A stretch of DNA of 15,696 nucleotides from Proteobacteria bacterium UBA4656 (GTDB taxonomy: Bacteria > Pseudomonadota > Gammaproteobacteria > Xanthomonadales > Ahniellaceae). The translations under genes were made by a program, and so were the position numbers. The stretch covers positions 51,361 to 67,056 of the forward strand of contig DHLY01000169.1 of NCBI GenBank assembly GCA_002405525.1, given 5' to 3'. Positions 83 through 14,490 of this stretch are shown here, piece after piece. The notes beneath the pieces were generated by a model. The model did not search any database, was not told where the DNA came from, and saw only the letters and a program-made list of their open reading frames with translations. Every line of letters begins with the position of its first letter. Position 1 is the stretch's first letter.

Positions 83-1465
<1,383 letters not shown>

Positions 1466-1532: not shown

Positions 1533-2285
1533 TCAGCCAGGATCGCGGGTGCACACGGCGTAGATGCTGGCGCAAAGCTCCGGATACTGCTGGCCCAGCG
1601 CATAGCAGCCCTCGACGTAGTCCATGCCGAGCACGCCGTCGGCGAGCAGACGGTCGAACTGGAAGTTGGCCAGCGGCTTGAACACGATGCCGCCGCGCGC
1701 GGCGATGCCGAGGCCGGCCTCGCGCAAGTCGCGCTCCAGGGTGTCGAAGCGGTAGGTGCAGCGGTGGCCGTGGCGACGCTCGGGTTCGGTGACCGCCGCG
1801 TTGTGCGCGATCAGCCCCATCTTGACCGCGATCTGCCGCGAGGCCGCGTCCGCGTTGGGCACCACCACGAACAGCAGTCCGTCGGGCGCCAGCGCGGCGC
1901 GCAGCGCGGCGAGCGCCGGTCCCGGCGGATCGATGTGCTCCAGGGTGTGCACGAGGAAGATGGCGCGGTAGTGCGGTTCCAGCGGCACCTGCTCGACCAG
2001 CCCGTGCACGAAGCGCACGCCGGAGGGGACGCGCGCGCGCGCGCGCTGAATGAGCGTGGCGCTGGCCTCGACCACGGTCAGGTCCGGGAAGGCCTCGGCG
2101 AGCAGCGCGGTCGAGGCGCCGTCGTAGCAGCCCACCTCCAGCGCCGGGCCGGGACGGAACCACGGACGCAGGGTGCGCATCATGTAGCCGCGCACGATGG
2201 CGTCGAAGTCGTAGGCGTAGCGGCGGCCGACGTCGTCGTCGAACTCGGCCTCGTGGTCGCGGGCGTGCTGCATGGCGTGCGTCAT
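1533..2285 (-). CDS. Class I SAM-dependent methyltransferase, last gene of the glycan unit
   Basis: 250 residues. A Rossmann methyltransferase core starts near residue 46: motif I is [10 protein letters not shown] (49-58), the acidic residue that usually holds the SAM ribose is E73 in VVEAS, and post-motif HTLEHIDPP (113-121) precedes a typical strand ending VVVPNAD (140-146). No membrane segment is seen, so it is cytoplasmic. The start ATG at 2285 overlaps the stop of the dioxygenase gene as ATGA, so translation is probably coupled. An internal ATG four codons later is possible. The family (Methyltransf_11/23 type) includes small-molecule and sugar O-methyltransferases. The operon context points to O-methylation of a sugar or of its acyl group, but the substrate cannot be read from the sequence. 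Confidence 0.85.
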
Positions 2286-3070
2286 CCCTGGTCGGCGTGG
2301 TAGCAGCGGCGCTCGGCGGGCCGGTACCAGGCGTCGTGCGAGTCGGGGATGCGCGAGCGGAAGCCCAGCACCTCGCGCACCCGCGGATCGTCGCTGAAGC
2401 CTTCGCCGACCAGTCGCGGATAGTCCATCTGCGGCTTCACCAGCGGCCGGGTGAAGGTCAGGGTCAGGGCCCGCCGCGGCTCGCCGTTGCGGTTGGGCGA
2501 GGCGGCGTGCCAGAGGTTGGCGTCGAACAGCAGTGCGGTGCCGGCGCGCCCGGTGACGTGGATGGCATGCGCGGCAAGATAGTCCTCGGGCGGGCGGTCG
2601 GCGAGGCGATGCGAGCCCGGCAGCACGCGGGTGGCGCCGTTGTCGACGCTGAAGTCGTCCAGCATCAGCAGCAGGTTGAGCATCAGCCGGAACTCGCCCG
2701 CAAAGGTGCGCACGTCGCGGTGGAAGCGGTGCGCGTGGGTGTAGTCCGCCGCCGGGCCGTCGAGATGCATCAGCCCGCCGAAGGAGTTGAGCACGTAGGG
2801 CCCGCCGAAGTGGTGGCGGATCTGCGCGTCCAGCGGCAGCGCGCGGATCAGCTCGCCCATCGCGTCGTCCTCGCCGAGCAGGTGGTGGGCGACGCCGCGC
2901 ATCGAGGCGCCGAGCCCGTTGCGTCGGCGGATCGCGTCGCAGCGCGCGATCCACCGCTCGAGGTCGGCGCGCAGGCGGGCGAGGAAGGCCGCATCCAGCA
3001 CGCCGGGCACCACGGCGTACCCGAGGCGCGCGAGCTCGAGGGCCAGGGCGTCGGGCGCGGGTGCGCTCAT
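2282..3070 (-). CDS. Phytanoyl-CoA dioxygenase (PhyH) family Fe(II)/2-oxoglutarate oxygenase
   Basis: 262 residues. The fold of this non-haem iron oxygenase family is indicated by the HxD iron motif H117-R-D119 (in HRFHRDVRT) and the distal iron histidine H188 (FDANLWHAASPN). R199/R200 in GEPRRALTLTF are candidates for binding 2-oxoglutarate. MLDDFSVDNGATRVLPGSH (136-154) is the characteristic PhyH strand region. All three iron ligands are present, so the enzyme looks active. The start ATG at 3070 overlaps the acetyltransferase stop (ATGA), with a GGGA run just upstream. PhyH enzymes hydroxylate acyl chains and other small molecules. In this unit a hydroxylation of the sugar, or of an acyl group on it, is the natural guess. 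It is not an AlkB or TauD type by motif layout. Confidence 0.88.
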   Translation of the reverse strand: MSAPAPDALALELARLGYAVVPGVLDAAFLARLRADLERWIARCDAIRRRNGLGASMRGVAHHLLGEDDAMGELIRALPLDAQIRHHFGGPYVLNSFGGLMHLDGPAADYTHAHRFHRDVRTFAGEFRLMLNLLLMLDDFSVDNGATRVLPGSHRLADRPPEDYLAAHAIHVTGRAGTALLFDANLWHAASPNRNGEPRRALTLTFTRPLVKPQMDYPRLVGEGFSDDPRVREVLGFRSRIPDSHDAWYRPAERRCYHADQG

Positions 3071-3630
3071 GCGCCGTCCCAGTAGCGGTGGCGCGCCGCC
3101 CACTCGCGGTACCGCGCCGCGTCGATGCCGAGGATCAGCTTGTCCCAGCGGCGACCCTCGCGGAAGTACCAGCCGCGCTTGATGCCCTGCACCTGCCAGC
3201 CGCAGTGCTCGACGTGGACCTTCAGCGAGGCCGTGTTGTACTCGATGATGTCGGTATCGAGCAGCGCGAGGTCGAGCTCGTCGAAGGCGTGGCGCATCAC
3301 GGCCATGATGGTGTCGCGGCCGAGGCCGCGGCCGCGATGCTCCGCGTCGCCGATCATCACCCCGTGGAACGCGGTGCGGTTCTTCCAGTCGATCGACACC
3401 AGGTTGGCGCTGCCGACCATGCCGGTGCCGTCGGCATCGATCGCGAAGCGCTGGTCGTTCGAGCGGCATGACAGGGAGGCGAGCCAGGCCTGCTGGTCGG
3501 CGCGGCTGACCGGGAACTGCCAGCCGCCGAGCAGCCGCTGCACCTGCGGATCGTTGGCCCAGGCCTGCAGCCTCGGCAGGTCGTCCGGCTCGATCGCACG
3601 CAGCGTCACCTGGCGCCCGCGCAGGTTCAT
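3067..3630 (-). CDS. GNAT acetyltransferase, RimJ/RimL-like
   Basis: 187 residues, a single GNAT domain of the Acetyltransf_3 type. The acetyl-CoA pyrophosphate loop is E97-HRGRGLGRD (R99, G100, G102, G104). Motif B follows as YNTASLKVHVEHCGW (131-145) with N132. The N-terminus VTLRAIEPDDLPRLQAWAND is characteristic of the family. Members acetylate amino groups of proteins, antibiotics or nucleotide amino sugars (for example PseH or FdtC-like enzymes). Its position directly after two aminotransferase-type genes suggests that it acylates the amino group they install, which is inference. The start ATG at 3630 overlaps the previous stop as ATGA. No clear Shine-Dalgarno sequence is seen, which fits translational coupling. 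Confidence 0.88.
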   Translation of the reverse strand: MNLRGRQVTLRAIEPDDLPRLQAWANDPQVQRLLGGWQFPVSRADQQAWLASLSCRSNDQRFAIDADGTGMVGSANLVSIDWKNRTAFHGVMIGDAEHRGRGLGRDTIMAVMRHAFDELDLALLDTDIIEYNTASLKVHVEHCGWQVQGIKRGWYFREGRRWDKLILGIDAARYREWAARHRYWDGA

Positions 3631-4616
3631 GCGGCGGCCCGCGTGGCGTCGAACACCGCCAGCGTCGCGTCGACGTCGTCGTCGTCCAGGCGCTGGTCGC
3701 AGGGCAGGCAGACGGTCGCATCGCGCAGGCGCCGGCCGACCGGGTCGTGGCGCAGCGAGGTGGCGTCGTCCCAATAGTGCGCGCAGTAGATGCCGTGCGC
3801 GGCGAGCCGGCGGCGCAGGGCGTCCGCATCCGGCGCGGGCAGGGGCAGGCACAGCGGCACGGCGTCGTCGGGCAGGTCCGGCGGGGCGTGGCCGAGCGCG
3901 ACCAGGCCGTCGGCGAGGCGGCGGTAGTTGCGCCGCCGGGCCCGCGCCACGGCGTCGAAGTCGATCCCGGCGAGCAGCCGGGTGGTGAGCGCCGACATCG
4001 TCGTCGGCGCGGTTTCCGCGCTGATCGACGCCTCGGCGGCGGCGAAGTGCGCGCGGCCGCCGGCGACGTCGCCCGCCGCGCGGTGCAGCAGGTGGGCGCA
4101 GCGCGCGATGCTGGATTCCTCGCGCTGCGGTGCCGGTGCCGCGGTCGCCGGCGGATGGCGCAGGCAGCCGCCGTCGGGCACGCCGACGAACTTGCGCGGC
4201 GAGGTCGCGGTGGGCACGCCCGGCTCGGGTTCGAACCACAGCGACATCGCGGCATCGACCAGCACGCGCTGCGCGCCGAAGCGGCGGCAGGCGCGACGCA
4301 CCGTGGCGCCACACAGGCCGAACCAGTCCACCAGCAGCACGCGGTCGCCGTCGTCCGGCTGCACCGCGGCGTCCGGACCGAGGTCCTCGGCCAGCGCGTA
4401 CTCGCGCAGCCGCCAGCCGCTGGCGGCGAGCGCGGCGCGCGCCGGCGGGCAGTACCAGGCCGGCAGCCACAGGGTCGCGCGTGGCCAGGCGTCGAGCGCG
4501 AGGCGCAGGGCCATGCGCCCGCTCTGCACGGCGCGCGCATCGCCGAGCCACGGCAGGCCCCGGCCGGCGCCGGGCTCCAGGCCGAAGTAGCCACCGAGGG
4601 CGCGCATGGCCGTCAT
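3627..4616 (-). CDS. Divergent PLP-dependent aminotransferase-like protein
   Basis: 329 residues, shorter than typical DegT/DnrJ/EryC1/StrS enzymes (about 370-400). The fold type I pattern can still be traced: SGRMALRLAL (32-41) at the first helix, LWLPAWYCPPAR (49-60) for the strand-loop seen as LPSYTF in normal members, D121 in VLVDAAMSLW as the partner of the PLP ring nitrogen, and K142 in SPRKFVGVPDGG as the likely Schiff-base lysine. Both key residues are therefore kept, and activity is possible. The C-terminal third (about 250-329) resembles the small domain, with YCAHYWDD where sugar aminotransferases have a substrate loop. The start ATG at 4616 overlaps the WbqC stop as ATGA; the ATG three codons in is an alternative. 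The substrate is unknown. Its sitting beside a standard DegT enzyme makes a second amination or a non-sugar role both possible. Confidence 0.72.
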   Translation of the reverse strand: MTAMRALGGYFGLEPGAGRGLPWLGDARAVQSGRMALRLALDAWPRATLWLPAWYCPPARAALAASGWRLREYALAEDLGPDAAVQPDDGDRVLLVDWFGLCGATVRRACRRFGAQRVLVDAAMSLWFEPEPGVPTATSPRKFVGVPDGGCLRHPPATAAPAPQREESSIARCAHLLHRAAGDVAGGRAHFAAAEASISAETAPTTMSALTTRLLAGIDFDAVARARRRNYRRLADGLVALGHAPPDLPDDAVPLCLPLPAPDADALRRRLAAHGIYCAHYWDDATSLRHDPVGRRLRDATVCLPCDQRLDDDDVDATLAVFDATRAAA

Positions 4617-5323
4617 GCGTGGCCGGTGACCAGGTCGAACTGCGCGACGCGGCGGGCGACCTCGTCGACCGGCAGGAACATCAGGGCGTCGAGGATCGAC
4701 AGGTTGGGCACGAAGCCGCCGCCGCCCTGTGCGTAGGGTTCCGGGCGCGCGCGCAGGAAGCGCAGTTCGATGCCGCGCGCGGCGAAGGCCGAGTGGTCGT
4801 ACAGCGTGGTGCCGCCGATCGCGTTGACGTAGGTGTCGGCGCCGAGCGCGGCGCAGATTGCGAGCACGCGGTCCTGGCCGCGCAGGCGGGTGTCGTGCGG
4901 CACCTCGGAGGCGCGCACGATGCGGGCGCCCAGCCCGAGCGTCGTGGCGACGCTGCGCAGCCCGTGCAGGTTCGCGTCCGCGACGCCCTCGGCGGCCGGA
5001 TCCATCGCCACCGCGCCGAGGTCGAGCGCGTCGTCGCGCCGCGGGGCGTGCCGGTAGCGGTCGCGCAGCCGGTCGAGCAGCCGCGCGCGATGCCGCGGCC
5101 AGTCGTGGTACTGGCGCTCGGCGATGGTCGAAGCCAGCGGCGCGGACGCCACCGGCGCGGTCCACCACTCGGGGGAGCCGTCGCGCAGGATGCGGTTGCG
5201 GTTCACCCAGCCGTGCTTCTCGAACTGCACGTTGTCGTAGGCGACGAACACGTCGGCGGCCGCGAGCAGGCCGTAGTAGCCGAGGTAGGGGAAGAAGTAC
5301 GGCTGCATCAACGCGACGATCAC
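4613..5323 (-). CDS. WbqC family protein
   Basis: 236 residues matching the WbqC family along its whole length: QPYFFPYLGYYGLL (7-20), QFEKHGWVNRNRI (33-45), ADTYVNAIGGTTLYD (162-176), GIELRFL (184-190) and PNLSILDALMFLP (206-218). The start is the GTG at 5323, because family members have a few residues before the MQPYFFPY motif and because GTG overlaps the previous stop as GTGA, matching the other junctions; a GAGG run lies a few bases upstream. The ATG at 5308 would cut the first strand. WbqC-like genes occur in O-antigen, capsule and flagellin sugar clusters, often beside amino-sugar genes, and are thought to take part in acylating or modifying an amino sugar. The biochemical reaction of this one is not established. 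Confidence 0.9.
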   Translation of the reverse strand: MIVALMQPYFFPYLGYYGLLAAADVFVAYDNVQFEKHGWVNRNRILRDGSPEWWTAPVASAPLASTIAERQYHDWPRHRARLLDRLRDRYRHAPRRDDALDLGAVAMDPAAEGVADANLHGLRSVATTLGLGARIVRASEVPHDTRLRGQDRVLAICAALGADTYVNAIGGTTLYDHSAFAARGIELRFLRARPEPYAQGGGGFVPNLSILDALMFLPVDEVARRVAQFDLVTGHA

Positions 5324-6555
5324 GGCGCCGCCTCGCGCAGGGCGCGGATCACCTCGGCGACGGTGTCGATGGCGTCCACCGGCAGGGTGGGGCCGGTGGG
5401 AAGGACGATCACCCGCGCGGCGACGTCGGTGGTGTGCGGCAGCAGCAGCCCGGCGTGCGGGTAGAGCGAGCGGAACGGCTGCATGTTGTGGCAGCCGGGC
5501 CAGAAGTACTTGCGCGCCAGGATGCCCTCGGCGTGCAGGGCGGCGACGATCGCATCGCGCGGCACGGGGAAATCGCGGTCGAGCTCGGCCACGACGTACT
5601 GGAAGTTGCTCGCTTCGGCCGCGTCGTAGGGCAGCACGCGCAGGCCGGGGATCGCCGACAGCGCGTCGGTGTAGCGCCGGTGGTGGGCGCGGTTGGCCTC
5701 GACCACGGCGGGCAGCACGTCGAGGTTGGTCAGGCCCATCGCGGCGCAGATCTCCGGCATCTTGCCGTTGGTGCCGGGGTGGACCACGCGGTCGAAGTCC
5801 TCGAAGCCGAAGTTGCGCATGTAGCGCATGGCGCGCGCGAGGTCGTCCTCGTTGGTGGTGACCGCGCCACCCTCGAAGGTGTTGAAGAACTTGGTCGCGT
5901 GGAAGGAGAACACCTCGGCGCGGCCGAAGGCGCCGACCCGCCGGCCGCGGTAGGTCGCGCCGAAGGCGTGCGCGGCGTCGAACATCAGCGCCAGCTGGTG
6001 GCGGCGCGCGATCTCGGCCAGTTCGTCGATGGGCGCTGCGCGGCCCCACAGGTGCACGCCGATGATGCCGGTGGTGCGCGGCGTGATCATGCGCTCGACC
6101 GCGGCCGGGTCGAGGTTGTGGGTGGCGGGGTCGATGTCGGCGAAGACCGGCGTGATCTCCTGCCACTGCAGCGCCTGCGCGGTGGCGACGAAGGTGTAGG
6201 AGGGCAGGATCACCTCGCCGCGCAGGCCGAGCGCGCGGATCGCGATCTCCAGCGCGACGGTGCCGTTGCACATGGCCACCACGTGGCGCACGCCCAGGTG
6301 GGCGGCCAGGCGGCGCTCGAGTTCCTGCACCAGCGGCCCGTTGTTGGTCAGCCAGCGCCGGTCGAGCAGCTCGTTGGCGAGTCCGAGGAAGCGCTCGCGA
6401 TTGCCGATGTTGGGCCGGCCGACGTGCAGCGGCTCGGCGAAGGCCGGCGGCGCGCCGTGCACGGCGAGGTCGGCGCGGCCGCGGATGCGCTTGCGCACGG
6501 CCGGTGGCGCGCACTCGGCCGGCGGGTCGTGCGGGAGATGGGTCTCGAGGATCAT
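5320..6555 (-). CDS. DegT/DnrJ/EryC1/StrS family sugar aminotransferase
   Basis: 411 residues, a full-length PLP enzyme of the nucleotide-sugar aminotransferase family. GNRERFLGLANELLDRRWLT (51-70) and NNGPLVQELERRLA (71-84) are the standard entry region. CNGTVALEIAIRALG (96-110) and ILPSYTFVATAQAL (116-129) bind PLP. D193 in FDAAHAFG pairs with the ring nitrogen, and K222 in SFHATKFFNTFEGGAV forms the Schiff base. NGKMPEICAAMGL (263-275) is the conserved dimer loop. Such enzymes transfer an amino group from glutamate to a keto group of an NDP-sugar; VioA, PseC and FdtB are relatives. The exact sugar cannot be assigned. About 40 extra residues precede the core, which is unusual. The start ATG at 6555 overlaps the glycosyltransferase stop as ATGA. 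No 4,6-dehydratase is present nearby, so the keto-sugar must come from elsewhere. Confidence 0.93.
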   Translation of the reverse strand: MILETHLPHDPPAECAPPAVRKRIRGRADLAVHGAPPAFAEPLHVGRPNIGNRERFLGLANELLDRRWLTNNGPLVQELERRLAAHLGVRHVVAMCNGTVALEIAIRALGLRGEVILPSYTFVATAQALQWQEITPVFADIDPATHNLDPAAVERMITPRTTGIIGVHLWGRAAPIDELAEIARRHQLALMFDAAHAFGATYRGRRVGAFGRAEVFSFHATKFFNTFEGGAVTTNEDDLARAMRYMRNFGFEDFDRVVHPGTNGKMPEICAAMGLTNLDVLPAVVEANRAHHRRYTDALSAIPGLRVLPYDAAEASNFQYVVAELDRDFPVPRDAIVAALHAEGILARKYFWPGCHNMQPFRSLYPHAGLLLPHTTDVAARVIVLPTGPTLPVDAIDTVAEVIRALREAAP

Positions 6556-8504
6556 GCGGCGGCATCCGAGGGTTCGATCGCGCGCGGCGCGACGCGGAAC
6601 GGCGCTGGCGGCTTGCCGCTGCAGTGCCGGCGCCACATGGCGCGCAGCGCGTCCTCCAGGCCTTCGACCACGCGACGGGCATCGCGCTGCGGGGCGGCGG
6701 CGAGCTGCTCGCGCAGCCCGGCGCGCAGCGCGGCAAGCGCGGCGATGCGCTCGATCCATTGCGCCGCCAGCGGCGCCAGCGCCGCGGCGTCGGCGGCGAT
6801 GAACTGCGGCAGGCCGGCATGGCGCAGGATCGCCGCGCTGGAGCGCGAGGCCAGCGTCGCGCCCTCGAAGGTCAGCGTGGGCACGCCCATCCACAGGCCG
6901 TGGGCGGTGGTGGTGCCGCCGGTGTAGGGGAAGGTGTCGAGCAGCAGGTCGACTTCGTGGTGGGCCGCGAGGTAGGCGGCGAGGTCGGTGCGCGGCAGCA
7001 GGTCGACGCGCGCCGTGTCGATGGCGTGCGAGGCGAGGCGCTCGCGCAGGCGGTCGCCCTGCGACGGGTCGATCGCGCCGATCCGCAGCCGCGCGCCCGG
7101 CACCGCGGCGAGCACCGCCGACCAGGCATCGAGGGTCGCCGCGGTGATCTTGGCCGAGCGGTTGAAGCTGCCGAAGGTGGCGTGGCCGCGCGCGAGGGCG
7201 GGCAAGGGGCCGACCGGCGGCGACGCGGGATCGGGCCGGAACACCGACACGGTCGGCAGGTGCACCAGGCGCTCGGTGAACTGCGAATCGAGTTTCCCCG
7301 GCGGTGCGAAGCCGCGGTCGACGAAGTAGTAGTCCATCGCGCGCAGGCCGGTGGTGCCGGGATAGCCGATCCAGCTCACCTGCAGCGGCGCCGGGCGGCG
7401 CGCGAACACCGCCAGGCGGTGGTGCGCGGTGTGGCCGGACAGGTCGAGCAGGATGTCGATCCCGTCGTCGCGGATCGCGGCGGCCAGCGCATCGTCGGAC
7501 CAGCCCGCGGCCGGGGTCCATGCGTCGACCAGCCCCTGCAGGCGCGACGTCACCTCGTCGGCGGCTGGCGCCACCGAGTAGGCATGCAGGCGGAAGCGGG
7601 TGCGGTCGATCTCGCGCCACACCGGTTCGATGAAGTGCGCGGCCGCGTGGCGGCGGAAATCGCCGGATACGAAGCCCAGGCGCAGCGGACGCTCGGGGTC
7701 GCGCGGGCGCTGCGGCGGAGCGACCGGGCCGAGCGCGCGTTCGAGCCGCAGGCCGAACTCGCGATGCGCCTCGAACAGCTTCTTCGGCGACAGCGTGCCG
7801 TGGTGCTGCAGCAACAGCAGCAGGGTGCTGCGCGGGCCGCTCGCCTCGGGCGCGCGTTCGACGGCGCGGCGGCACCAGGTCTCGGCCTCGGCGTGCTCGC
7901 CGTCGGCGGCCAGCAGCGCGCCGAGCAGGCTCGGGTACTCCGGGTGGTTCGGGTCGCGTTCGATCGCGGCGCGGATCGCGGCGCGGGCCTCGTCGCCGCG
8001 CTGCAGGTCGCGCAGGAGCAGGGCGAGGTGGTGCCAGGTGGCGGCGCGCTGCGGTGCGCGCGCGAGGGCCTCGCGGTACGCCGCCTCGGCCTCGTCATGC
8101 CGGTGCAGCGCCGCCAGTGCGACGCCGAGATTGTCCCAGGCGACCGCGTTCGCGGGATCGAGCGCGAGCGCGCGCCGCGCGGCCGTTTCGCCCGCCGCGG
8201 CATCGCCGACCGCGACGGACGCCGCGGCGAGGTTGCTGTGCGCTTCGGCGTCGTCGGGCAGATGCTGCGCGGCGGTGGCCAGCGCGGGCAGCGCCGCCGC
8301 CGGCGAAACCAGCACCCACTGCAGCGCGCCGAGCACTTTCCAGGCCGCGCCATCGTCGGGTGATGCGGCGACCTGCCCGGCCGCGGCCGCCATCGCGGTG
8401 GCGAGATCGCCGCGCGCGAGCGCGTCCTGCACGGTCGCCGGCGAAACGGCGGCAGCGGCATCGGCGTGCGGCGGACTCGGGCGCGGGGCGACAGCGGACG
8501 GCAT
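6552..8504 (-). CDS. TPR-containing SPINDLY/O-GlcNAc transferase-like glycosyltransferase (GT41)
   Basis: 650 residues. About five TPR units with a clean 34-residue spacing cover roughly 52-220 (conserved starts near 86, 120, 154 and 188). The C-terminal half is a GT-B catalytic region of the OGT type: LGFVSGDFRRHAAAH (276-290) with H286 at the position of the OGT active-site histidine, DLSGHTAHHRLAVFARRPAP (354-373) followed by LQVSWIGYPGTTG (374-386), FGSFNRSAKI (444-453) with K452 at the nucleotide-binding lysine position, and DTFPYTGGTTTAHGLWMGVP (523-542) for the UDP-binding helix. No signal or membrane segment is seen, so it is a cytoplasmic enzyme that likely glycosylates Ser/Thr of a protein bound by the TPRs. 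The start ATG at 8504 is chosen because GGTGGAG sits 6 bases upstream and a sigma-54 element lies just beyond; ATGs at 8555 and 8684 would fall in or before that promoter. It heads the seven-gene unit. Confidence 0.93.
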   Translation of the reverse strand: MPSAVAPRPSPPHADAAAAVSPATVQDALARGDLATAMAAAAGQVAASPDDGAAWKVLGALQWVLVSPAAALPALATAAQHLPDDAEAHSNLAAASVAVGDAAAGETAARRALALDPANAVAWDNLGVALAALHRHDEAEAAYREALARAPQRAATWHHLALLLRDLQRGDEARAAIRAAIERDPNHPEYPSLLGALLAADGEHAEAETWCRRAVERAPEASGPRSTLLLLLQHHGTLSPKKLFEAHREFGLRLERALGPVAPPQRPRDPERPLRLGFVSGDFRRHAAAHFIEPVWREIDRTRFRLHAYSVAPAADEVTSRLQGLVDAWTPAAGWSDDALAAAIRDDGIDILLDLSGHTAHHRLAVFARRPAPLQVSWIGYPGTTGLRAMDYYFVDRGFAPPGKLDSQFTERLVHLPTVSVFRPDPASPPVGPLPALARGHATFGSFNRSAKITAATLDAWSAVLAAVPGARLRIGAIDPSQGDRLRERLASHAIDTARVDLLPRTDLAAYLAAHHEVDLLLDTFPYTGGTTTAHGLWMGVPTLTFEGATLASRSSAAILRHAGLPQFIAADAAALAPLAAQWIERIAALAALRAGLREQLAAAPQRDARRVVEGLEDALRAMWRRHCSGKPPAPFRVAPRAIEPSDAAA

Positions 8505-8682: not shown

Positions 8683-8919
8683 ATGGCCCTGCACCTCTAT
8701 CGACGCGAGTCCTGTTCGCTGTGCGACCTCGCGGAGGCCGCCCTGCAAGGCGCCGGCGTGGCGGACTACGTCGCGGTGGAGATCGGCTGGACCGGCGAGC
8801 TCGCCGAGCGCTACGGCTGGCGGGTGCCCGTGCTGCGCGAGCCGGCCAGCGGGCGCGAACTCGACTGGCCGTTCGATGCCTGGGGCGTGCGCGCGTTCCT
8901 GGCAGGTCCCCGGGGCTGA
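8683..8919 (+). CDS. Glutaredoxin-like thiol-disulfide protein (DUF836 type)
   Basis: 78 residues, one thioredoxin-fold domain. Strand LHLYRRESC leads to the active-site pair C11-S-L-C14, followed by helix DLAEAALQGAG, then strand YVAVEIGW. The cis-proline loop RVPVLRE (V48-P49) comes before the last strand and helix (PFDAWGVRAFLAG). This is the small DUF836/glutaredoxin-2-like family, found as stand-alone cytoplasmic proteins probably involved in thiol-disulfide exchange; the partner is unknown. The ATG at 8683 is the only start that places the first strand correctly. The ribosome site is weak. The gene diverges from the glycan unit and faces the yceI cluster tail to tail. Confidence 0.85.
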   Translation: MALHLYRRESCSLCDLAEAALQGAGVADYVAVEIGWTGELAERYGWRVPVLREPASGRELDWPFDAWGVRAFLAGPRG

Positions 8920-9052: not shown

Positions 9053-9607
9053 CTATCTGCGCGCCAGCACCAGGTCCACGGTCACGTCGACGAACTGCGG
9101 GATCAGGTCGGTGTCGGCCCAATCGCCGCTGCCGACCTCGAAGGCGATCCGGTCGACCTTCGCGGCGGCCTTGAGCGTGGCGCGGTCGCCGGCGGCCTCG
9201 AAGCGCAGGTTGAACGGCATCGCGACGGTGCGGTCGCGGAGCGTCAGCGAGGCCTCGCAGTCGATCGCGCCCGGCGCCGCGCCCGCCTTGCAGGCGGTGG
9301 TGCGGAAGGTGGCCGACGGGAACTTGCCGGTCCAGAAGAACTCCGGCGTGGCCAGGGTGCCGTCGCGCTCCTCGTTGTCGGTGGCCACGCTGGCGATGTC
9401 GATCGACACTTCGATCCGGGTCGCCTCCGGCTTCGCGGGGTCGAGCGTGATCGCGGGCGTGAAGCGCTGGAAGCGGCCGCTGAAGGCCTCGCCGTCGTAG
9501 CTGCTGGAAAAGCCCAGCGTGCTTCCGGCCGCGACCAGGGACCACTCGGCGGCCGGGGCCGCGGCGGAAACGGACAGCAGCAGCGCGCAGGCGATGGGTC
9601 GGATCAT
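9053..9607 (-). CDS. YceI family periplasmic protein (second copy of the cluster)
   Basis: 184 residues with a signal peptide (MIRPIACALLLSVSAAAPAA, cut before EWSL). The mature part is a lipocalin-like YceI barrel: AAGSTLGFSSSYDGEAFSGR (26-45), IEVSIDIASVATDNEERDGT (65-84), FFWTGKFPSATFRTT (90-104), SLTLRDRTVAMPFNL (120-134) and AFEVGSGDWADTDLIP (155-170). YceI proteins bind long isoprenoid-like molecules in the periplasm and frequently accompany cytochrome b561. The ATG at 9607 overlaps the cytochrome stop as ATGA and has an AAGGAG ribosome site 8 bases upstream. It ends at a TAG. It is clearly divergent from the other YceI protein of the cluster, so this is not a recent duplication. C106 and C116 in the mature chain could form a disulfide. 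Confidence 0.92.
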   Translation of the reverse strand: MIRPIACALLLSVSAAAPAAEWSLVAAGSTLGFSSSYDGEAFSGRFQRFTPAITLDPAKPEATRIEVSIDIASVATDNEERDGTLATPEFFWTGKFPSATFRTTACKAGAAPGAIDCEASLTLRDRTVAMPFNLRFEAAGDRATLKAAAKVDRIAFEVGSGDWADTDLIPQFVDVTVDLVLARR

Positions 9608-10203
9608 GGGTCTTGCTCCTTCGTCGGTTCGGCGGCCGCGCGCGGCGCCGGGCGGGCGGACGCGAACGGCAGCATCGCGCGCAGCACGCCGTCGCGGTCC
9701 CCGAAGTGGTGCTTGAGCGCCGCGGCGACGTGCAGCGCGACGATGGCGGCCAGCGCGATCGCGGCGTACTCGTGCACCGCGCCGCTGATCGCCTTCAGGG
9801 TCTCGTCGCGCCCGGACAGCGCCGGCACGCGGAACAGCTCGAACCACTTCAGCGGGAAGTTGGACGCCGAGTTGTACAGCCAGCCCGACAGCGGCATCGC
9901 CAGCAGCAGCAGGTACATCAATCCGTGGCTTGCACGTGCGGCGCGCCGCTGCCACGCCGGCATCGCGGGTGCCGCCGGCCGGCGGCGGTCGACCAGGCGC
10001 AGCGCGATGCGCAGGCTCATCAGCGCCAGCACGGTCAGGCCGATCGACTTGTGCAGCTTGTAGATGTCGATCTTCCGCGGCCCGTTGGGCAGGTCCTGCA
10101 TCCACCAGCCGACCGCCAGCAGGCCGATCACGCCCAGCGCGATCGCCCAGTGCAGCACGCGCATCGGCGTACCCCAGACCCGTTCGTCGTTGCGCCACGC
10201 CAT
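9604..10203 (-). CDS. Cytochrome b561 family membrane haem protein
   Basis: 199 residues, four hydrophobic segments near 14-36, 50-72, 92-110 and 142-162. Histidines in the helices, H18 (VLHW), H51 (YKLHKS), H144 (VHEYAA) and H158 (ALHVAA), fit the two bis-histidine b-haems of the CybB family. The inner-membrane protein passes electrons with the quinone pool; Escherichia coli CybB is a superoxide oxidase and relatives serve other redox tasks. The family length is about 175-190, so the tail (about 183-199, Ala/Pro-rich) is a small extension. The start ATG at 10203 follows the first yceI stop by 6 bases, with GGGAG spanning that stop as ribosome site. It sits between two yceI genes, the reverse of the more usual single b561-yceI pair. 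Confidence 0.93.
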   Translation of the reverse strand: MAWRNDERVWGTPMRVLHWAIALGVIGLLAVGWWMQDLPNGPRKIDIYKLHKSIGLTVLALMSLRIALRLVDRRRPAAPAMPAWQRRAARASHGLMYLLLLAMPLSGWLYNSASNFPLKWFELFRVPALSGRDETLKAISGAVHEYAAIALAAIVALHVAAALKHHFGDRDGVLRAMLPFASARPAPRAAAEPTKEQDP

Positions 10204-10209
10204 GCGCGC

Positions 10210-10788
10210 CTACTCCCGTATGGCCTCGATCTCGAGCACGATCTCGACGTCGTCGGCGATCGCCGCCGGCAGGCGCGAGATGCCGAACGCGCGGCGGCTG
10301 AGCGTGGTGCGCGCCGAGAACCCCGCGGTCTGCTTCAGGTTGAAGGTGTTGCGCCCGACGCGATTGCGCGTCACCTCCAGGACCACCGGCCGCGCGACCC
10401 CGCGCAGTTCGAGCAGGCCGTGCACGCGGGCGGTGGATTCGCTTGTCGGCTCGATGCGCTGGCTGGTGAACCGAGCCGCGGGGAAGCGCCCGGCGTCGAA
10501 GAAGTCGTCGGAGCGCATCTTCTTCTCCCATGCGGCATCGCCCAGCCACAGTGAGTCGACGTCGATCGTGGCCTCGACCCGGCCGGCGGTCCAGTCGTCC
10601 GGGTCGAAGTCGATGCTGCCCGTCACGCCGGTGAAGCGGCCCATCTGGCGCGAAAAGCCCAGATGGTCGGCGAAGAACAGCACCTGGCAATGCACCGGAT
10701 CGAAGCGCCATCGCACCGGCGCGTCCTGGGCGCCGGCAGCGCGGGCGAGACCCAGGACAAGGGCGAGCAGGGCGATGGACCGGCGCAT
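10210..10788 (-). CDS. YceI family periplasmic protein (first copy of the cluster)
   Basis: 192 residues with a signal peptide ending LARAAGA before QDAPVRW. The YceI barrel motifs follow: [20 protein letters not shown] (27-46), [17 protein letters not shown] (50-66), [20 protein letters not shown] (71-90) and [18 protein letters not shown] (92-109), then [18 protein letters not shown] (122-139). The start is the ATG at 10788, because it opens the signal peptide directly; an upstream in-frame TTG at 10842 adds 18 residues that do not fit a signal peptide. The ribosome site is weak. It is the first gene of the yceI - b561 - yceI cluster and diverges from the sensor kinase gene across 120 bases. 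The cluster as a whole suggests a periplasmic isoprenoid or quinone carrier paired with membrane redox chemistry. Confidence 0.92.
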
Positions 10789-10867
10789 GGAAGCCAGTGT
10801 GCCCGCAAAGACGTGCAGATGGCGCGTGCGCCGTGGCGCCAAGCACCTGCGCGGCCGACGGACCGGC

Positions 10868-10873
10868 TATTCT
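10868..10873 (+). promoter_or_regulatory. Probable -10 element for the sensor kinase
   Basis: TATTCT is a strong -10 hexamer in an otherwise GC-rich stretch and predicts transcription from about 10880, some 29 bases before the ATG at 10909. No good -35 is found at 16-18 bases upstream, so the promoter may need an activator. Confidence 0.5.
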
Positions 10874-10908
10874 TCGCGGCGGCGCACGCGGGGCGGGTGG
10901 GACGACAG

Positions 10909-13900
10909 ATGCACAGGGCAAGGCGCTGGATGCTGCTGCTCGGTGGCCTGCTGGCGATCGACGCCGGCGCCCTGCCGCCGACGCCCCTGTTCGAGACGCT
11001 GGGCGTGGAACAGGGTCTGCCCAGCACTTCGATCTACGAGGTCGTGGAAGACCGCAACGGGTTCCTCTGGGTCGCCACGGCCAATGGCCTGGCCCGCTAC
11101 GACGGCGTGGCGTTCCGGGTCTGGCAGCGCGATCCCGGCCGCCCCGGGTCGCTGCCGGCCAACGACGTGCAGACGGTGTTCGTGGACCGCGAGGACCGGA
11201 TCTGGGCCGGGACTGTGGACGGCGGGCTGTCGATGCTGGATGCGCGTGACGGCCCGGTGCGCACCTGGCGCGGCGGCATGGGCGGCGACGGGTTGACGGG
11301 CACCGACGTGTGGGCGATCGCACAGGCCCCGGACGGAACCATCTGGGTCGGCACCTATGGGGGCGGGCTGAACCGGCTCGACCCTGCGCGGGGCGTGATC
11401 GGGTCGGTGCGCCACCGACCGGGCGATGCAGGCTCGATCGCCGCCGACGCGGTGACCGACCTGCAGGTGGACGCGCGTGGCCGTTTGTGGGTCGGCACCT
11501 TCAGCGGGCTGAGTGTGCTCGACCTGGCTGCTGCCCCCGCGGGCGACGGTCCGGCGACGCAGTACTTCGATGGCCGGATGGTGATCTCGCTGCGCGCGGG
11601 TGCGGAGGGCGCGATGTGGGTCGGTTTCGGCAACGGGGCGGTACGCATCGCCGCCGACGGCACCGTGGAGCCGGTCGCCCTGCCCGAGTCGCTGCCGATC
11701 GAAGCGGTGATCGAGGACGGCACGGATCGCCGTTGGTACGCCGGGCGCCGCGGTCTCGTGCTGGAGCACCCGCCCGGCAGATTCGCCGTGTTTCGCCGCG
11801 AGGCCGGTCGCCCCTACGTCCTGCCGTCGAACATCCTTCTCGCCGGGCTGCGAGACCGCGAGGGCGGCCTGTGGTTTCCCGCGCGGGAGGGCGGCCTGGT
11901 CCATGTCAAACCCCAGTGGGACAACTTCAGCCTGCTGCGCCCCGACGCGCGCGGTGCCGGCGTGGTCGACGACGCGCGCGTGCGCACGGTGGCGCGATGC
12001 GCCGATGGCGACGTGCTGTCCGACGGCCCGCAAGCCAGCCTGCTGCGTTTCGACCCGCGTTCGGGCGCCGACGTGCGCATCGACCCGCCGTGGCCGGATC
12101 GCGCCGAGTCGCGCGTCCTGACGGGGGTGCTGTGCGCGAGCGATGGCAGGTACTGGCTGGCGTATCGTCGTGGTCTTGCGCGCTTCGACCCGCGCAGCGG
12201 GACGATGGAAACGTTCCGCGGCGGGGCGCCCGATGGCATCGCTTCCGGCGTCGTCGGCCTGCTGGTGGAGGACGCCGACGGCGCGGTCTGGGTCTCGGTG
12301 CTTGGGATCGCCCTCTACCGCTTCGGTCCCGGCAGTGCCGCGCCGCAGCGCTTCGACGCCTGGCGCGAGGACCAGCAGGGCCGCGAGATCGAACAGCTCG
12401 GCCCGGGTCCCGATGGCGCGCTGTGGGCCACAGGCACCCTGGGCGTGGCGCGCTTCGATCGCGCGGCGTTGCGCTGGACAGCACTGTCCGGCGCGCCGGC
12501 GGGCCGCATCGAGTCGTTCGCCTTCGATGCCGACGCGGGCCTGTGGCTGCACGCCGCAGACGGCCTGCTGCGATTCGCCGTCGAAGGCGACACGCTGCGC
12601 GAGACCGCGCGCATCGGCCACGCCGATGGCCTGCCGGCACTGCGCGGCGCGGGACTGTCCGTGGACGCCGCCGGAAGGCTGTGGCTGATCGCTCCGTCCG
12701 GTATCTGGCGCGTCGATCCGGCGACCCGCGCGGTGCGCCGCTTCGGCCGTGCCGACGGCCTGATGGCGCCCGAGTTCGGCGAACACCCGCCGGTGCGCGC
12801 GCCTGACGGATCGATGTTCATCGCCAGTTCGCTCGGCGTGGTGGCCTTCGATCCGCAGCGCGTCCGCGACAACGAGATCGCGCCGCGCGTCGTGGTCGCG
12901 GGCGCCTCGGTCCTGCGCGACGGCACGCGCGTGGCGCTCGATCCGGCCCAGCCGATCGCGCTGGGCCACCTCGACCGCGACCTGCGGGTCAGCGTGCGCG
13001 CGCTGTCGCTGGCCGACCCGTCAGCCAACCGCTACCGCTTCCTGCTGCAGGGGTTCGACACCGACTGGGTGGACCTCGGCAATGTCGGGGAGCGTGCGTT
13101 CTCGCAACTGCCTCGCGGGCGCTACCGGTTGCGGATGCAGGCCGCCAATCCCAGCGGCGTATGGGCGGCGGCACCGATGGAACTGGCGATCGACGTGCGA
13201 CCGGCGCCGTGGTTCACCAGCTGGGCCTTCATGCTCTACGCGCTGGTGCTGGCGCTGGTCGGCTGGCTGGCGTCGCGGGCCTGGCGCGCGCGCGCCGACC
13301 GCGCGCATGCGCTGGCGCTGGCCGAGGAGCGCCGGCTCGCCGCCGAGCGCCAGAACCAGGCCAAGACCGAGTTCCTCGCCGACGTCGGGCACGAGATCCG
13401 CACGCCGATGACCGGCCTGCTGGGCATGACGGAACTGCTGCTGCGCTCGAGCCTCGACTCGCGCCAGCGCGAGCAGGCGCTCACCGTACGGCGCTCCGGC
13501 GAGCACCTGATGAAACTGGTCGACGATCTGCTTGACCTCTCGCGCATCGAGGCTGGCCGGCTGGAACTGGAGCCGGTGCCGACCGACCTGTGGGCGCTGG
13601 TCGACGATGCGGTGGCGCTGCAGGCGCCGCTGGCGGCCGAACGTGGTCTGGCCCTCGATGCGCGCATCGATCCGGTGGCGCCGCGTCACGTCCGGGTCGA
13701 TGCGACGCGGTTGCGAGAGGTGCTGCTCAACCTGCTCAGCAATGCACTCAAGTTCACCGCGCGCGGCCGCATCGACGTCGGGCTGGCGCCGGATCCGGAG
13801 GTCGGGGGCGGGTTGCTGCTGTCGGTATGCGACACCGGCCCGGGCATGGACGCCGACGCGGTGGCGAGGCTGTTCGGCCGCTGGGAGCAGGGCCGCGGGC

Positions 13901-14486
13901 CACGCCGCCGCGGCAGCAGCGGGCTGGGACTGTCGATCAGCCGCCGGCTGGTCGAACTGATGGGCGGGCGGATTGCGGTCGACACCGCGCCCGGCGCCGG
14001 CGCCACCTTCCGTGTCCATCTCGTCCTGCCGGCCTGCGACCCGCCGGCCGCGCCGTCGCCGCGCGGCGAGCCGGTGGCGGCGGCCAGCGGCGGGTTGTCG
14101 CTGCTGCTGGTGGAGGACGACGCCGTGGTGCGCGAGGCGCTGGTCGGGCTGCTGGGCGCCGCCGGGCACCGCGTGGAGGCGGGCGCGAACGGGCTGGATG
14201 CGCTGCGCCTGCTGGGCGAGCATCGCTTCGACGCCGCGCTGTTCGACCTCGACCTGCCGGGCGTGGACGGGCTGCGCCTTGCCCGCATGGTGCGCAAGCG
14301 CCCCGGCGCGGAGGCCGCGCTCCCGCTGCTGGCGATCACCGCCAACGCCGCACCGGGGATCGAACTGCAGTGCCGCGAGGCGGGCTTCGACGCCTTCGTG
14401 CGCAAGCCGGCCAGCCTGCAGGTGCTTGGCGCCGCCCTGCTCATGGCGGTCGCGCATCGACGCGTGACGACCGTCGGGGACGGTGC

Positions 14487-14490
<4 letters not shown>
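10909..14490 (+). CDS. Hybrid sensor histidine kinase with two-component propeller sensor
   Basis: 1193 residues. The start ATG at 10909 gives a signal peptide ([21 protein letters not shown]). Residues about 25-690 hold roughly 14 Reg_prop propeller repeats of the form DxxGxLWVGTxxGLxRxDP, probably two seven-bladed propellers. A Y_Y_Y domain (about 693-764) follows, then one membrane segment (about 772-791) and a short coiled linker. The kinase core has H828 in GHEIRTPM as phosphorylation site, N945 in the N box ([12 protein letters not shown]), D975 in DTGPGMD and [10 protein letters not shown] in the G2 box. The C-terminal receiver (about 1063-1185) has E1069-D1070-D1071, acceptor D1113 in [10 protein letters not shown] and K1166. 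It would sense a periplasmic ligand, as propeller kinases often do for glycans, and phosphorylate its own receiver. No separate response regulator or output domain is visible, so the downstream partner lies elsewhere. Confidence 0.95.

Follow-up and report, generated by a model that had tools for sequence, protein, structure and literature searches.

The 15,696-nucleotide stretch of DNA analysed here (the window; Proteobacteria bacterium UBA4656, contig DHLY01000169.1, positions 51,361 to 67,056) carries seven overlapping genes (GT41, DegT, WbqC, PLP2, GNAT, PhyH and a methyltransferase; Table 1), all on the minus strand at window positions 1533..8504 and joined into one block by ATGA coupling. 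The unit encodes enzymes of nucleotide-sugar modification together with a glycosyltransferase, as flagellin glycosylation islands do, and it is probably a cytoplasmic protein-glycosylation cassette that moves horizontally, makes a decorated viosamine and most likely serves flagellin. The gene set, its coupling, the insertion of the whole unit, the conservation of such units beside fliC in other bacteria and the predicted folds of the encoded proteins are established.

Sixty related loci were gathered by scanning genome contigs with an alignment of PLP2, a pyridoxal phosphate (PLP) enzyme of the unit, and a single peptide pattern (KFVG[VL]PDG), so that relatives without this peptide were missed. 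Unit membership was scored by tblastn of the window proteins (E 1e-5). A gene was called at PLP2 in 58 of the 60 loci, the calls coming from a simple caller and many neighbours being judged by clustering or by eye rather than by Pfam. All seven genes are present in five loci, one of which (L012) is near-identical to the window. In Burkholderia sp. lig30 (L020) and Bp8963 (L027), they keep the order and strand of the window and directly follow fliC-fliD-fliT, as identified by Pfam. The Caballeronia loci L014 and L015 also hold the complete set, with WbqC relocated to the end and no adjoining flagellar genes. Six of the seven occur in two further Caballeronia loci (L021 and L065), where GT41 is inverted, the methyltransferase is missing and fliC adjoins, and in two Pseudomonas loci (L036 and L046), which carry a large GT2 protein in place of GT41 and adjoin flg genes. 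Protein identities of these loci outside L012 are about 29-54 %. Gene clustering placed fliC in the neighbourhood of PLP2 in 10 of the 58 loci (flagellin being Pfam-confirmed in five of the ten), and flg genes in two more (L036, L046). Flagellar genes adjoin 6 of the 10 PhyH-bearing loci and 5 of the 8 GT41-bearing loci. The preliminary description had reported the seven-gene set and proposed looking for conserved gene order in relatives; the set does exist in the sequence and its order is kept in Burkholderia. A lack of joint conservation, which that description had named as refuting, was therefore not observed, although complete conservation is narrow, with the near-identical locus among the five. 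On the other hand, that description did not recognise the exact set, which is not unique to the window, since homologous sets exist elsewhere.

The nearest genome is that of the Lysobacteraceae metagenome-assembled genome CoA8_M120 (G001; contig JAJTHZ010000031.1, locus L012), with a PLP2 97 % identical to that of the window. A homologue of the glutaredoxin-like open reading frame (ORF) begins 56-139 bp from sdaA in seven of the eight family genomes, other than G001, in which the 5' end of sdaA was covered; no such homologue turned up in the 1.5 kb examined of the eighth (G004). In both the window and G001, the seven genes occupy exactly this gap. Given that the site between the glutaredoxin-like ORF and sdaA is empty in relatives and filled in these two, the seven genes were inserted as a single unit, a horizontally moving cassette.

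The GT41 protein matches PF13844 with 137 bits (cut-off 25), tetratricopeptide repeat (TPR) families also score above cut-off, and the matches among PDB sequences are SPINDLY (326 bits), 5djs (297 bits), human OGT (203 bits) and XcOGT (161 bits). SPINDLY is thus its closest solved relative, in agreement with the earlier placement of a SPINDLY/OGT-like TPR-GT41 at the centre of a protein-glycosylation cassette. The longest in-frame start of this gene is at 8684, but a start at 8504 or 8555 is likelier, because the glutaredoxin-like ORF begins on the plus strand at 8683 and leaves no room for a promoter. DegT, described earlier as a DegT aminotransferase, is best read as a 4-aminotransferase of the DesI/VioA type by family and solved-structure matches: DesI is both its top family among the 23 listed (TIGR04427) and its top solved structure (2po3, 385 bits; next 204), although the 478 bits for the family lie under the DesI equivalog cut-off of 650. 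In L018 and L022, DegT and PLP2 stand in one cluster beside two more DegT genes and a methyltransferase, and L031 is similar; the DegT of L018/L022 is 66-68 % identical to that of the window, and might be the source of this DegT type. In PhyH, the H-x-D motif, the distal H and the R of RR are retained in all 11 aligned rows. The methyltransferase matches the hypothetical protein 2p7h in the PDB (256 bits), and a PHROGs search of the unit returned only aminotransferase and acetyltransferase matches.

We infer each chemical step, the donor and, by analogy with the fliC-adjacent units, the target in the organism of the window. Host RmlA and RmlB would supply dTDP-4-keto-6-deoxyglucose, which DegT would aminate at C4 to give dTDP-viosamine (Qui4N). 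WbqC may then form an amide between the sugar 4-amine and an amino acid, or a similar acid, made or presented by PLP2, after which GNAT would cap the new amine and PhyH would hydroxylate. The product of this four-gene block would be an N-acyl group unlike the 3-hydroxybutyryl of P. syringae. Finally, the methyltransferase would O-methylate the sugar, and the TPR-GT41 would attach the completed residue to Ser/Thr of flagellin. The mass calculated for such a residue is 217.095 when viosamine gains acetyl, hydroxyl and methyl alone, 274.116 when Gly is included, 288.132 for Ala and 304.127 for Ser, compared with 245.126 for the sugar of P. syringae. RmlB is encoded in G001 (485 bits, cut-off 365), as anticipated by the preliminary description, which had looked to the host for the dehydratase. 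Pfam and the gene list show no acp, KAS III, reductase or VioB among the seven genes. The same description had assigned decoration of the amino sugar to separate enzymes. The decorating set stands, but WbqC, PLP2, GNAT and PhyH fit better as a single block that makes an N-acyl group, and acylation is not simply the work of GNAT, since WbqC itself resembles an amide ligase by predicted fold. Overall, the earlier interpretation is supported for the GT41 cassette, the aminotransferase, the P. syringae parallel, the outside dehydratase and conservation, and not for uniqueness or separate decorations.

The Pseudomonas locus L046 bears on the role of this block. A transporter gene and a piece of a glutamine synthetase gene are followed there by a 372-residue DegT, WbqC, PLP2, GNAT, PhyH, a 243-residue methyltransferase and a 1,179-residue glycosyltransferase. 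According to the available part of the source (PMC3927599), the P. syringae viosamine island comprises vioA, vioM, vioT, vioS, vioB, vioR and acp between glutamine synthetase and histidine kinase genes. The flank transporter-glutamine synthetase-vioA is the same, and VioA, VioM and VioT, of 372, 241 and 1,173 residues, resemble the L046 proteins by size and context. As L046 shares the island flank and no acp, KAS III, reductase, vioS, vioB or vioR was recognised in it, the WbqC-PLP2-GNAT-PhyH block appears, by analogy, to stand in for the genes that make the N-acyl group in the viosamine island.

WbqC immediately precedes PLP2 in 26 of the 58 loci and lies at most eight genes away in 31, and WbqC-PLP2 pairs are also seen in loci of Bacteroidota and Firmicutes that lack GNAT-PhyH, suggesting a joint task for the two proteins. 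A second cassette, of ATP-grasp and methyltransferase genes, accompanies the same core in Luteibacter, B. multivorans and the Pseudomonas loci L039, L043, L044 and L048. The ATP-grasp cluster is present in 8 loci (PF15632 being confirmed by Pfam in 3), none of which is among the 10 loci with the PhyH cassette. The pairing and these alternative cassettes together point to WbqC-PLP2 as the core and to the caps as the variable part.

In the WbqC protein, PF08889 is the sole Pfam family listed at E 0.01, PF10079 (BshC) not being matched, and a profile search against solved structures found none (best E 0.48). The leading fold matches of its predicted model are carboxylate-activating enzymes, namely BshC, class I synthetases and pantothenate synthetase, whereas Foldseek alone gave no BshC similarity at E 0.001. 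Sequence homology between WbqC and BshC was tried and rejected: hhalign returned 0.3 % at E 0.18 and did not outperform the PLP2 (0.057) and DegT (0.17) controls. The BshC set comprised 30 stop-to-stop ORFs, all confirmed by blastp, plus 10 of 120 listed proteins; a first run with 30 BshC ORFs, some trimmed to the first Met, likewise gave 0.3 %, E 0.18. Among short N-terminal windows of the two families, none in register beat the others, and the best (12.9 %) fell at an unrelated place. An HQ...G motif was spotted by eye in both families and is a lead only. The similarity of WbqC to BshC is therefore one of predicted fold only. PLP2 matched no Pfam family at E 0.01, PF01041 (DegT/DnrJ/EryC1) included, and its profile gave weak DegT matches only among solved structures (best E 0.052). 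A more speculative proposal, possible but doubtful, is that WbqC joins MshC and BshC as a third kind of amide ligase resembling aminoacyl-tRNA synthetases, one that acts on amino sugars; together with PLP2, its constant companion, it would aminoacylate dTDP-viosamine and other nucleotide amino sugars in many phyla. Exchangeable caps (GNAT and PhyH, or ATP-grasp and methyltransferase) would then diversify the product, which for this cassette might be an N-acetyl-hydroxyaminoacyl O-methyl viosamine on flagellin.

Besides the lack of sequence homology behind the WbqC-BshC resemblance, several observations weigh against a flagellin cassette with this chemistry. Neither the window nor the 21 kb around the unit in G001 showed a recognisable flagellar gene. 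Nearby flagellin, which the preliminary description had proposed to look for, is thus seen with the Burkholderia units and not in the window or L012. The two Flagellin_N matches of G001 lie on contigs C258 and C111, both separate from the contig of the unit; no glycosyltransferase gene was seen on its fliC contig, which ends soon past fliC. The unit is rare in its family and order: PLP2 was found in one of ten family genomes (G001 itself) and in 2 of 398 genomes of the order, G001 included, the other being Luteibacter. At the unit ends, no common 9-mer was found as a border repeat, and the GC content shows no clear difference from the flanks. In L046, the block lies between the vioA-like and methyltransferase genes, whereas in the available P. 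syringae table vioM and vioT precede vioS-vioB-vioR-acp. An exact replacement of vioS-vioB-vioR-acp in place is ruled out by this gene order (PMC3927599); the island and the role match, the internal position does not, and our estimate for the cassette is unchanged. G001 has 18 GT41-domain matches on 8 contigs, that of the unit included. The others, an unusual expansion, are on C113 (some in tandem), C170, C203, C64, C122, C159 and C216. To our knowledge, the GT41 enzymes characterised so far take UDP-GlcNAc or GDP-fucose rather than dTDP-viosamine, and we know of none that uses a dTDP-viosamine-type donor.

The separation of flagellin from the unit in G001 would also fit the same sugar chemistry acting on another exported protein, such as a type IV pilin or an autotransporter, and the acceptors of TPR-GT41 enzymes are varied. 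Pilin remains a rival acceptor because a pilin gene (PF00114, 91 bits) adjoins the DegT-WbqC-PLP2 core of Luteibacter (L013), a member of the same order whose DegT shares 67 % identity with that of the window; this arrangement counts against flagellin. No GT41 was found in the Luteibacter locus DNA examined, which counts against this rival. We consider a non-flagellin acceptor quite unlikely, given that five of the eight GT41-bearing loci lie beside fliC, and that the fliC-adjacent Burkholderia GT41, searched in G001, matches the window's GT41 clearly best (398 bits, next 200, among the 18 matches listed). The L013 locus (L013:3603-12989) consists of pilin, two large proteins, one of which matches TPR weakly, and then DegT-WbqC-PLP2-ATP-grasp-methyltransferase, and is perhaps a pilin or polysaccharide glycosylation locus.

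Different chemistry would result if PLP2 were a second sugar aminotransferase and WbqC no ligase, the product being a diamino or otherwise modified sugar with GNAT as the sole N-acylating enzyme. PLP2 does have a DegT fold with the catalytic PLP-binding Lys and Asp, the top NCBIfam match of GNAT is PseH, although weak (48 bits against a cut-off of 93), and WbqC lacks sequence support as a BshC relative. However, the unit has no 3-oxidase or isomerase to provide a second keto group, the WbqC-PLP2 pairing suggests a joint task, and the fold matches of WbqC favour carboxylate activation, making this alternative unlikely. A role of the unit in surface polysaccharide modification (O-antigen or capsule), with GT41 as a bystander, is very improbable. 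Many PLP2-WbqC pairs do lie in polysaccharide loci of Firmicutes and Bacteroidota, near initiating sugar transferase, GT4 and PIG-L-type genes, but the only glycosyltransferase of the unit is the soluble, translationally coupled TPR-GT41, no initiating transferase, flippase or polymerase is present in the unit, and the nearest homologous seven-gene units adjoin fliC. Flagellin glycosylation thus remains the reading that we prefer.

Table 1. Genes of the unit and of its immediate flanks in the window
Feature	Position	Strand	Assignment and proposed role
GT41	6552..8504	-	TPR repeats and SPINDLY/OGT-type catalytic domain; proposed protein O-glycosyltransferase
DegT	5320..6555	-	DesI-type sugar 4-aminotransferase; proposed dTDP-4-amino-4,6-dideoxyglucose (viosamine) synthase
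WbqC family (PF08889)	4613..5323	-	Proposed amide ligase on sugar amine
PLP2	3627..4616	-	Short divergent DegT-fold PLP enzyme; proposed partner of WbqC
GNAT acetyltransferase	3067..3630	-	Acetyltransf_3, 75 bits; proposed N-acetylation of new amine
PhyH-family Fe(II)/2-oxoglutarate oxygenase	2282..3070	-	PhyH, 90 bits; proposed hydroxylase of acyl group or sugar
S-adenosylmethionine (SAM) methyltransferase	1533..2285	-	Methyltransf_23, 66 bits; proposed sugar O-methyltransferase, VioM-like role
sdaA, L-serine ammonia-lyase	83..1465	-	TIGR00720, 714 bits; right-hand flank, outside the unit
Glutaredoxin-like ORF	8683..8919	+	PF05768, 32.5 bits (cut-off 26); left-hand flank, outside the unit

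Beyond the glutaredoxin-like ORF, the minus strand at window positions 9053-10842 encodes cytochrome b561 (9604-10203, PF01292) between YceI (9053-9607, PF04264) and another YceI-like ORF (10210-10842). In several relatives, some of these genes have homologues next to sdaA and the glutaredoxin-like gene. A hybrid sensor kinase-like ORF of ~1,200 residues (10841-14490, plus strand) lies upstream of the YceI genes and is followed by a DinG-like helicase ORF running off the window, both named by eye.

As far as our searches show, the WbqC-PLP2-GNAT-PhyH block, the reading of WbqC as a ligase and the whole-unit insertion are new. Flagellin islands that combine GT41/SPINDLY with DegT, methyl- and acetyltransferases are already known, as are a TPR flagellin glycosyltransferase and viosamine on flagellin. 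The open literature searched (WbqC; GT41 and flagellin; aminoacyl/Qui4N and flagellin; glycine transferase) yielded, among the papers listed, no account of WbqC function and no report of this gene set. Relatives of WbqC have reportedly been proposed as glycine transferases, and a WbqC gene is said to lie in an E. coli cluster producing N-acetylglycyl-viosamine. Viosamine with N-acetylglycyl, N-(3-hydroxybutyryl)-L-alanyl and N-acetyl-D-alanyl groups is known from O-antigens, according to the available text of PMC3210612. If our reading is correct, a function open to testing would be assigned both to WbqC, a so far uncharacterised family of O-antigen, exopolysaccharide and flagellar loci, and to the PLP2 enzyme family, which has no Pfam entry. 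It would also explain how bacteria attach amino acids to the amine of viosamine-type sugars, and would imply that the exchange of whole N-acyl-making blocks among islands generates diversity in flagellin sugars.

Compared with the cysteine-adding enzyme of bacillithiol synthesis (BshC) and the mycothiol cysteine ligase (MshC), WbqC shows no profile-level sequence similarity; it lacks the extra domains of BshC (236 against 540 residues) and differs in genomic setting. Among flagellin systems, GT41/SPINDLY proteins occur in 14 of 42 Enterobacteriaceae island types, together with DegT, SAM methyl- and N-acetyltransferases; the part of that account available names no WbqC, PhyH or second PLP protein, and those islands lie beside flagellin, unlike the window's unit (PMC4875605). 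Caulobacter FlmG is a TPR glycosyltransferase for flagellin, according to the accessible text (PMC7591256). In the portion of PMC3927599 available, the P. syringae island makes 4-(3-hydroxybutyryl)amino-2-O-methyl viosamine on flagellin, loss of vioM removing one methyl and loss of vioR the whole sugar. The window shares with it a viosamine-type 4-aminotransferase, a methyltransferase and a glycosyltransferase for a flagellin sugar, and with the common flank of L046 these uphold the parallel first drawn in the preliminary description. It differs in having WbqC-PLP2-GNAT-PhyH and no recognised acp, KAS III, reductase or VioB, and VioT caps rhamnose, whereas the GT41 of the window is proposed to act on protein. 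The flagellin glycan of B. cenocepacia, Qui4N(3-OHBut) (Hanuszkiewicz 2014, as cited in the available part of PMC12355684), carries 3-hydroxybutyryl instead of the group proposed here; likened by glycan and not by genes, it provides a single viosamine-type flagellin sugar in Burkholderia, the genus where the nearest gene sets occur.

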